This document shows, in pieces, positions 16,562 through 20,028 of a stretch of DNA of 64,000 nt. The stretch lies in contig NZ_QTUC01000001.1 of assembly GCF_003386795.1 (NCBI RefSeq), positions 2,294,001 to 2,358,000 on the forward strand, read 5' to 3'. The notes under the pieces were generated by a model. It was not told the DNA's origin. It was given only the letters and a program-made list of their open reading frames with translations, and made no database searches. Both the position numbers and the translations under genes were made by a program. How positions within the stretch are numbered: position 1 is the stretch's first letter; each line of letters opens with the position of its first letter. This DNA comes from Thermasporomyces composti (GTDB lineage: Bacteria; Actinomycetota; Actinomycetes; Propionibacteriales; Actinopolymorphaceae).

Positions 16562-16912
16562 GCCGTGTGCGGCCGGCGGCATGGTCCGCCGGTTGATGAG
16601 GAACGGCCGAAGCGGCGCCCGGCGTCGATGGCCCTGTGCCGATGGCACGGTGTCCATGGGCCTGTCCATGGCACGGTGTCCATGGCACCGTGCCATCGCC
16701 CCGGGCGCCGAGCCGTTCGTGGGTCGCTCGTCACCTCGGTCTCCTCACCGCCCTTCCTGTGAGCCAGCACCGCGTGGCCGAGGGCGGACGCCCCGCGAGG
16801 GAACGGGCGGCCAGGTCCGGCCCTCCGGACGGCTGTCGTCGTCTCCGCTGCGACAGTGGGCGGGGGTGCTCCCCCGGGGGTAGGTAACCGTTGCGAGAGG
16901 CGGGGGAGACGG
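16562..16912. other. Intergenic region with nested repeats
   Basis: This 351-bp gap follows the importer operon. Its only clear structure is the repeat block at 16641-16697. The remainder is GC-rich sequence without a reliable open frame. The promoter of the next gene is presumably near 16860-16900. Confidence 0.5.
16641..16697 (+). terminator. Direct/inverted repeat block after betaine operon
   Basis: ATGGCACGGTGTCCATGG occurs at 16642-16659 and again at 16668-16685. CACCGTGCCATC follows at 16686-16697 and can pair with the start of either copy, giving an 11-12 bp stem. The position, 80 bp after the lipoprotein stop, fits a terminator with two alternative folds. Confidence 0.5.
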
Positions 16913-17845
16913 GTGAAGGACGACGTGTCGTGCTCGGCGCTCTCAGCGACGCTGCACGAGCCGCTCGCCGGGACGGCGGCCCGGGCGCTCACCTGGCTGT
17001 GCATCGAGCAGCCTGGTCCGTACGGCGCTGACGCCCTGGTCGAGAGCCACCTGGACCGGGCAGTGGGCGCGGAGTTGGTCCGCCGGGCGACGGGGACCGG
17101 GGTGCGGATCCAGTTGATTCGCCGACCTGGCCGACACGCGGACGACCATCGGCCGCTTCGGCGACGAGTGATCCTCGCGCACACCCGTCCAGGCGCGACC
17201 TGGCTCCGGAGCGCCGAGATCGCCGACCTCGCCACGCTGCTGGACCTCGACCTCGCGGCCGCCGGTGCTGGGGACGACCAGGGTTTCGGTCATGCGGACA
17301 CCCGTCCGACCTTGCTGGTGTGCACCAACGGGCGCCGCGACGTGTGCTGTGCGCTGCGCGGTCGGCCGATCGCGGAGGCGCTGGTCGCGCGAAGCTCGGC
17401 GCCGGTGTGGGAGACGACCCACACCGGTGGCCACCGGTTCGCGCCGACAGCCGTGCTGTTGCCGTGGGGCTACGCGTATGGGCGCCTCGACGTGGACTTC
17501 TGCACTCTCCTCCTGGCCCGGAGCGCGACAGGCCAGGTGGTCAGCGGGCGGTGTCGAGGCAGGTCGACCTGGTCGCCACCGGGTCAGGTCGCCGAGCTCG
17601 CGGTACGCGAGCGGCTCTCCGCTCCAGCCGGCCCTGACGAGCTCACCGTGGCCGCGGAGCGCTGGGACGGGTCGGACTGGGAAGCGCGGGTGACCGCGAC
17701 GTCGGGTCGTGCGTGGCTGGTGCGTGGGTGCGAGCGGCAGCTGACACCGGCGCGGCGGACGAGCTGTGTGAAGGCGCCGGTGCGACCGGCCGCGCAGGTG
17801 GTCACCGACGTGCGGGAGGTGGAGACCTCGACGGGCCGGCGCTGA
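16913..17845 (+). CDS. Sucrase/ferredoxin-like (thioredoxin-fold 2Fe-2S type) protein
   Basis: The 310-residue product starts at a GTG with GGGGGAG at 16902-16908. It matches the Suc/Fer-like family, with CTNGRRDVCCALRGRPIA and then WETTHTGGHRFAPTAVLLP and GYAYGRLD. In this family a thioredoxin-like ferredoxin fold carries Cys residues and the HxGGHRFA motif that bind a 2Fe-2S cluster in characterised eukaryotic relatives. The bacterial role is unknown. Cys at the CTNGRRDVCC block are all present. It is presumably cytosolic since no signal peptide is seen. It is convergent with the phosphotransferase-like gene. Confidence 0.8.
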   Translation: MKDDVSCSALSATLHEPLAGTAARALTWLCIEQPGPYGADALVESHLDRAVGAELVRRATGTGVRIQLIRRPGRHADDHRPLRRRVILAHTRPGATWLRSAEIADLATLLDLDLAAAGAGDDQGFGHADTRPTLLVCTNGRRDVCCALRGRPIAEALVARSSAPVWETTHTGGHRFAPTAVLLPWGYAYGRLDVDFCTLLLARSATGQVVSGRCRGRSTWSPPGQVAELAVRERLSAPAGPDELTVAAERWDGSDWEARVTATSGRAWLVRGCERQLTPARRTSCVKAPVRPAAQVVTDVREVETSTGRR

Positions 17846-17900
17846 CGTCACGGCGAGCCCTGGACGTGCCGGACGGCTCGCGCAGCCCGGCAACGCGCGA

Positions 17901-18641
17901 CTAGAACAACGCCGCCTCCAGGGTGGTCCGGTGCGCCGCCACCCAGCAGTAGGCGTCCTGAATCGTCGCCACGTGCCCTTCCTCGACCAGCCGACGCATG
18001 GTCGGCTCGCCCTCCCGTGCTCGCGCCTCGATGGTCTGCCAGCACTGGTCTTGACGCCACAGGATCGTCTCGACCAGCGCACGACGATCCCGGATGGTGA
18101 GCCCGTAGGCGTCGGCGATCGTCCGAAGCAAGGAGGCGGGTCCTGTCGGGTTGGCGCTGGTTCCCAGACGCAGGAACCGCCAGCACAGGTACGCCACGTC
18201 GTGGACGCGACGGCCGGGTGCCGCGTCGTCCCAGTCGAGGAAGGCGTACGGACGTAACCGGCCTCCCTCGTCGCGGTAGACGGTGTTCTCGGGTGAGACC
18301 GCGTTGTGGCAGACCACCTCCTGGTCCCCGGCGAGCCAGGAGCCCGCGGTGAGGTCATGGAGCTGGCGGACCAGTCGTGCGACGCGCGCCAGGCTCTCCT
18401 CCGACCAGACGTCCGGAGGCTGCGCCGGCTCTCGGGCCACGTGGCCGGGGAGATAGCTGAGGATCTCGCGGCCCTCGTCGTCGGTGCCGAGATACCGCGG
18501 CGCCCCCGGCCAGCCGTGGCGAGCGAGGAGGCGCAGGACGTCGTGGACGTAGGCCGCGCGTGCCGGCATGGGACGTCGTACGGTGTCGCCGACCCGGACG
18601 ACACGGTGGCGACGGCCGCCCAGGACCAACTCCTCCCGCAT
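17901..18641 (-). CDS. APH-family phosphotransferase-like protein lacking the catalytic Asp
   Basis: The 246-residue protein has the aminoglycoside-phosphotransferase fold, lacking much of the N-lobe. The catalytic loop, normally HGD or HND plus four residues and Asn, reads VCHNAVSPENTVY: His112 and the downstream Asn are kept, but the catalytic Asp is Ala114 (codon GCG). The DFG-equivalent motif FLDWDDAAPGRRVHD is intact. Family members phosphorylate small molecules such as antibiotics or sugars using the Asp as base. This copy is probably inactive as a kinase or has moved to another function, for example nucleotide or substrate binding. An HND-to-HNA change needs one A-to-C substitution plus third-base variation, so a sequencing error is possible but not required. 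Confidence 0.8.
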   Translation of the reverse strand: MREELVLGGRRHRVVRVGDTVRRPMPARAAYVHDVLRLLARHGWPGAPRYLGTDDEGREILSYLPGHVAREPAQPPDVWSEESLARVARLVRQLHDLTAGSWLAGDQEVVCHNAVSPENTVYRDEGGRLRPYAFLDWDDAAPGRRVHDVAYLCWRFLRLGTSANPTGPASLLRTIADAYGLTIRDRRALVETILWRQDQCWQTIEARAREGEPTMRRLVEEGHVATIQDAYCWVAAHRTTLEAALF

Positions 18642-18825
18642 GCACTAAGAGTGCCTGAACGTGTCGTTATTGCTAAGCCTGTCGTGCGTCGCGCCGTTCA
18701 CATGTCATGGGGCGAGGGCCCGCTGGCCCGCGGGAGTCGTCGGCGAAGGCGACAGGCCGGACGGCCGCGGGATCGTCCAGGCGAAAGACTGGGTGCGGGT
18801 CGGCCGAGCGGGGCAAGCTGAGGGC

Positions 18826-20028
<1,203 letters not shown>

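Follow-up and report, generated by a model that had tools for sequence, protein, structure and literature searches.

Here, we show that an APH-fold gene of Thermasporomyces composti, located at 17901..18641 on the minus strand of a 64,000-nucleotide stretch of DNA (hereafter, the window), encodes alanine where its relatives have the catalytic aspartate of the phosphotransferase active site. Four orthologues at the same syntenic locus have kept the aspartate and lost residues of the predicted nucleotide-metal site. Complementary active-site lesions in orthologues at a single syntenic locus are what is new here. Judging from sequence comparison, we lean towards the view that the window protein has the APH/choline-kinase fold, has probably lost phosphotransfer in its own lineage, and persists as a putative pseudokinase that acts by binding.

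In bacteria, proteins with the APH fold usually carry the annotation "phosphotransferase", whatever the active site holds. The window gene has an open frame of 246 codons, which starts with ATG at 18641 and stops with TAG at 17901, and a coding-like base composition (GC1/2/3 = 0.76/0.52/0.86). Its product scores 50.7 bits against Pfam PF01636 (APH, phosphotransferase enzyme family), where the cut-off is 23.2, and so belongs to that sequence family. AlphaFold2 models the window protein with pLDDT 93.0 and pTM 0.89 and the orthologue from Actinopolymorpha alba with 92.4 and 0.88, the secondary structure of the two being closely similar. The model, together with its fold matches, places the protein in the APH/choline kinase group. 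Among solved folds, VIA-align matches homoserine kinase best (Z 19.2, 221 aligned, 3.0 A), followed by N-acetylhexosamine 1-kinase and, lower, choline kinases, over a range of Z from about 16 to 19; the top Foldseek match is Cph001-D189N (E 2.1e-6, TM 0.56). The structure alignments took in 29 of the 34 named loci, with L017, L020, L025, L027 and L028 left out. At E 0.1, the window protein matches nothing in NCBIfam and nothing in the PDB searched by sequence (phmmer), and similarity of fold is by itself no guide to whether it is closely related to a characterised aminoglycoside-resistance phosphotransferase. No relative was found among viral contigs, and scanning 17800-18900 for promoter and terminator consensus sequences gave no match. 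We regard the window protein as a member of the APH group by predicted fold and by sequence family, and do not class it as an active phosphotransferase.

The catalytic loop reads V110 C111 H112 N113 A114 (codons GTC TGC CAC AAC GCG, 18300-18314, minus strand, as are all residues below). This bears out the central observation of an earlier note on this DNA, that Ala occupies the catalytic Asp position: codon 114 is GCG (18300..18302, in the context VCHN-A-VSPEN), its Ala is unique among the homologues read, and an HxDxxxxN loop with Asp is accordingly absent from the protein. His112 (18306..18308) and the metal-binding DxD motif, Asp136-Trp137-Asp138 (DWD, 18228..18236), are kept, as the earlier note had said; the former is His in 79/79 rows of the tree set, and Asp136 has become Gly in the four degenerate orthologues. 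The note was also right that the metal-binding Asn is kept, but its identity needs correction. In the HxDxxxxN motif, this residue is N119 (18285..18287), which is Thr in the four degenerate orthologues, and not N113 beside the His; both are kept. The metal-binding role of the Asn within this motif is described in a passage of PMC2860764. Metal-binding Asn and DxD Asp are therefore both present in the window protein (N119, D136). Further towards the N-terminus, Arg22-Arg23 of a conserved TVRRP strand (18573..18578; Arg23 in 40/40 reference rows) may correspond to the beta-3 Lys/Arg position of APH/choline kinases, and Gly8-Gly9 (18615..18620; Gly9 in 39/40 reference rows, with one gap) lies in what is probably the nucleotide-loop region. 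A lost catalytic residue (D114A) within a retained, confidently predicted fold is the pattern of a pseudokinase of the CAK group. Across 18285-18302, L115V and K118E accompany the Ala codon, making five base changes relative to the nearest orthologue.

With N119, D136 and the N-lobe Gly and Arg residues in place, binding of Mg-nucleotide and ligand without turnover is predicted. Both the nucleotide-metal site and the ligand pocket of the C-lobe should still be able to form, and turnover would be absent or very slow when no Asp positions the acceptor hydroxyl. The protein might then sense a ligand, act by sequestration or serve as a scaffold for a partner. It is also conceivable that the protein is an active enzyme without the canonical base, in which E118, D139 or the substrate takes over, or in which no base is needed. 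The remaining ATP and metal residues that we examined are indeed kept, and E118 and D139 are acidic and near in sequence. Residue 118 is Lys or Arg in 36/40 reference rows and Asn in 4, and the Glu of the window recurs in one other row of 79, where it coexists with Asp114; D139 likewise occurs in 4/40 reference rows, all with Asp114, and so is not tied to the loss. In APH(3')-IIIa, moreover, activity of the D190A mutant is given as undetectable in a passage of PMC3800079. We therefore find an unconventional enzyme improbable. The earlier note had offered a pseudokinase or another mechanism; of these, a pseudokinase has more behind it, namely the D190A precedent and a second loss of catalytic residues in orthologues L039-L042, and for another mechanism we have no positive evidence. 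Early gene decay is a third possibility, beyond those that the note named.

How unusual is Ala114? A scan of named bacterial genomes, with search peptides that excluded residue 114, returned 34 relatives of 43-70% identity, and Asp aligns to Ala114 in 34/34. In the tree set, residue 114 is Asp in 78/79 rows, with Ala solely in the window. A motif pattern that leaves this residue free was found at 34 places in 30/391 genomes of the order (33/34 Asp), and a stricter pattern at 16 places in 16/394 genomes of the class (15/16 Asp), the window being the exception both times; the order, class and other homologue samples overlap. Eight genomes of the family contain 63 places in 61 stretches, which gave 57 Asp, 1 Ala (the window), 2 Glu and 1 unreadable. 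Both Glu copies are divergent APH-like paralogues in genome G003 (L044, 2391-3179, and L158) that read CHNELFPWN; one of the two forms a tandem with an intact relative. The Glu paralogues of G003 are absent from the 79-row set. Six rows were removed before the tree was built. Five of them duplicated named loci; the sixth, L064, repeated L044 and had been meant to represent the tandem Glu paralogue, so that this paralogue is missing from the tree. At one further locus (L083), tblastn found no match, and no protein was obtained. We also considered that codon 114 might reflect an error of sequencing or assembly. It is GAC in the two nearest orthologues, and the step from GAC to GCG requires two base changes, which makes a read error unlikely; the frame is also open on both sides. 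A single assembly of the genus was compared, and we found no support for an error, which we judge very improbable. The earlier note had asked whether close homologues share the Ala, and had set Asp in all of them together with GAC on resequencing as the outcome that would count against it. The first half of this is what we see, as close homologues carry Asp; as to the second, two bases of the window codon are not those of GAC.

The genome that harbours the window gene has other members of the family. PF01636 matches 31 stretches, of which 19 were read, including the window gene and that of its relative L036. Asp in H-x-D is present in 15 of the 19 (13 with the full HxDxxxxN), one has HGE (L122), one is the window gene itself and two show no clear motif. 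L036 has 33% or 39% identity to the window protein, depending on which of two comparisons is used, and an intact HGD loop. Whether a paralogue duplicates or has taken over the role of the window gene was judged by protein search alone. In the same genome, L122 (1832939-1833277, plus strand) is an APH-like open frame with the catalytic loop HGE in place of HGD.

The window gene lies between a sucrase/ferredoxin-like gene (16856..17845, plus strand; PF06999), its convergent neighbour, and a thiolase gene (acetyl-CoA acetyltransferase-like; 18829..20028, plus strand; PF00108/PF02803), its divergent neighbour. In the family, the former adjoins the gene in 6/6 stretches and the latter is on the opposite side in 6/6, at a distance of 2 kb in G003 and less in the remaining stretches. 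A glycogen-debranching-type gene is close by in 6/6, and OpuAC and permease genes in 5/6, the sixth case being explained by the G001 contig, which stops short. In a maximum-likelihood tree, the window protein groups beside the orthologue of G001 (A. alba) with support 100/95, within a seven-row clade drawn from one family (support 100/99). The six other members of this clade lie between the same two genes and are therefore positional orthologues, whereas no such neighbour appears in flanks of up to 3 kb around the genes of L003-L034, the 32 named relatives that fall outside the family (E 1e-10). The Asp-bearing orthologues from A. alba (L037/L001) and A. pittospori (L038/L002), which share 70% and 64% identity with the window protein and have the same neighbours, retain the complete catalytic set, unlike the window protein; we found no assigned function for either. 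Gene loss was considered for G007, but the stretch around its closest thiolase gene matched 0/5 of the other genes compared (E 1e-3), which makes the locus unsuitable for comparison and uninformative about loss.

Like the window gene, the copies in four related species (L039, L040, L041 and L042; matches at about 1500-2240 of each) occupy this syntenic locus, and they keep Asp114. What they have lost, in 4/4, lies elsewhere: G9R, G18E, V21D, R23, N119T and D136G, with the N-lobe rewritten. A compensated frameshift was considered as the origin of the degenerate N-lobe and rejected, as other frames, inspected by eye, do not restore the lost motif. For the one copy tested (L039, over its 246 aligned codons), Pfam gives no match at E 0.01, to APH or to any other family; the degenerate copies have drifted so far that this one escapes the APH model at that threshold. 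Their frames are nevertheless open, and pairwise dN/dS after the loss is 0.20-0.26 (NG86, six pairs) or, by YN00 on the same pairs, 0.08-0.11; for divergent pairs we quote the NG86 values alone. An intact paralogous clade from four genomes, three of them shared with the degenerate set, gives 0.18-0.21 for comparison. The intact G003 orthologue groups beside the degenerate four with weak support (89/33). As the sister of the window protein in the tree, the G001 orthologue, is intact, catalytic residues must have been lost independently at least twice, provided that such losses are not reversed.

The selective constraint on these genes bears on whether the window gene is merely decaying. Branch omega is 0.16 for the window, 0.19 for G001, 0.16 for G003 and 0.24 for a degenerate copy, calculated from parsimony counts of codon changes where the other two sequences agree, a restriction that for each of the four branches favours conserved codons. 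The low omega of the window may predate D114A, which could have arisen at any point on the branch. Among the 57 columns with at least 95% conservation across the 40 reference rows, five differ in the window (F94L, T101S, D114A, L115V, G203T) and 10 to 12 in the degenerate copies. When the reference rows themselves were scored by leave-one-out (45 to 49 columns, gaps counted), 36/40 departed at 0 to 2 columns and four (L025, L028, L030 and L044) at 4 to 6, so that the window's count by itself is not diagnostic. With neighbouring genes as yardsticks, the window/G001 branch ratio is 3.8 for this protein versus 1.4 for Suc-Fer and 1.8 for thiolase, and the degenerate stem/G003 ratio is 3.2 versus 0.8, 1.3 and 2.2 (OpuAC), suggesting relaxed constraint. 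The picture is mixed, as the ratio of the window path, measured from the G003 node, to the G003 branch is 3.6 versus 1.5 (Suc-Fer), 4.2 (thiolase) and 4.7 (OpuAC), and this measure shows no clear acceleration of the window lineage. In these relative-rate tests, the G003 Suc-Fer row is over-long (503 aa), which may inflate its branch, and there is no G001 OpuAC row. It could be argued that the kinase had become dispensable and that D114A is an early step towards a pseudogene with no function left: the window and degenerate-stem branches are long in part of the neighbour comparisons, and with one genome of the genus compared, persistence is unproven. Yet all 246 codons are open under a purifying omega, just those five conserved columns have changed despite a 30% residue difference from the sister sequence, and the four-species degenerate clade is still open and constrained after its loss. 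Purifying selection is present, perhaps relaxed, and we consider decay a serious contender but an unlikely one.

Returning to the putative pseudokinase, a binding role may already have been present in the active ancestor and outlived catalysis. Such an ancestral role would explain how repeated loss of kinase activity was possible, and two losses at one locus in turn suggest that the role is ancestral; the same argument, also sequence-based, is made for bacterial spore kinases (BSKs) in a passage of PMC2860764. We tentatively propose, as a possibility that falls short of the case for the window protein itself, that the Actinopolymorphaceae locus encodes a kinase-fold protein mainly for binding, in which the enzyme was switched off by complementary routes and selection retained the protein in both. 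The routes would be loss of the Asp with the nucleotide-metal site kept (window) versus loss of the nucleotide-metal site with the Asp kept (L039-L042). If this is true, two complementary natural knock-outs and two intact orthologues would allow the binding role to be told apart directly from the catalytic one. A locus that is intact in two species, and has catalytic residues missing in five by two routes, amounts to a natural experiment on non-catalytic roles of the APH fold. Among the titles and abstract openings listed by our literature search, none describes this locus.

Laboratory mutants offer one point of comparison. As in the window protein, the catalytic-loop Asp is removed in APH(3')-IIIa D190A, there by engineering and here naturally; PMC3800079, in a passage citing earlier work, reports that the mutant keeps its structure and stability. 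Cph001 D189N is likewise engineered, and the name of the mutant indicates that D189 is probably the catalytic Asp. The entry titles (8i8g, 8i82, 8i85) describe crystals of Cph001-D189N with ATP and with CMN IIA, which by analogy suggests that the fold can bind ligands even when the Asp is missing. Identity between these mutants and the window protein is 15-18% in the fold alignments listed.

A natural counterpart is found in the BSKs (CotI/YtaA, CotS and YutH), which belong to the APH/choline-kinase group. Passages of PMC2860764 predict independent activity losses among them, more than once, and list five BSKs without D239, the counterpart of the residue lost in the window; in CotS, D239 is kept and the DxD and N244 are often lost, a pattern that resembles the degenerate orthologues L039-L042. 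As presented there, pseudokinase status is a prediction, no BSK having been assayed. BSKs are thus like the present locus in their APH-like fold and in repeated, predicted loss of catalytic residues within one family, and the sole link that we saw between the window protein and the BSK family is a fold match of its model to YtaA (2q83, Z 15.6). Unlike BSKs, the proteins described here are actinobacterial, and no spore or glycosyltransferase gene is among the neighbours compared. Pseudo-BSKs also carry further inactivating changes, whereas the Asp loss of the window protein stands almost alone. A pseudokinase of this kind is already known from the BSKs; the interesting part of the present case is that two complementary losses are found at one syntenic locus.
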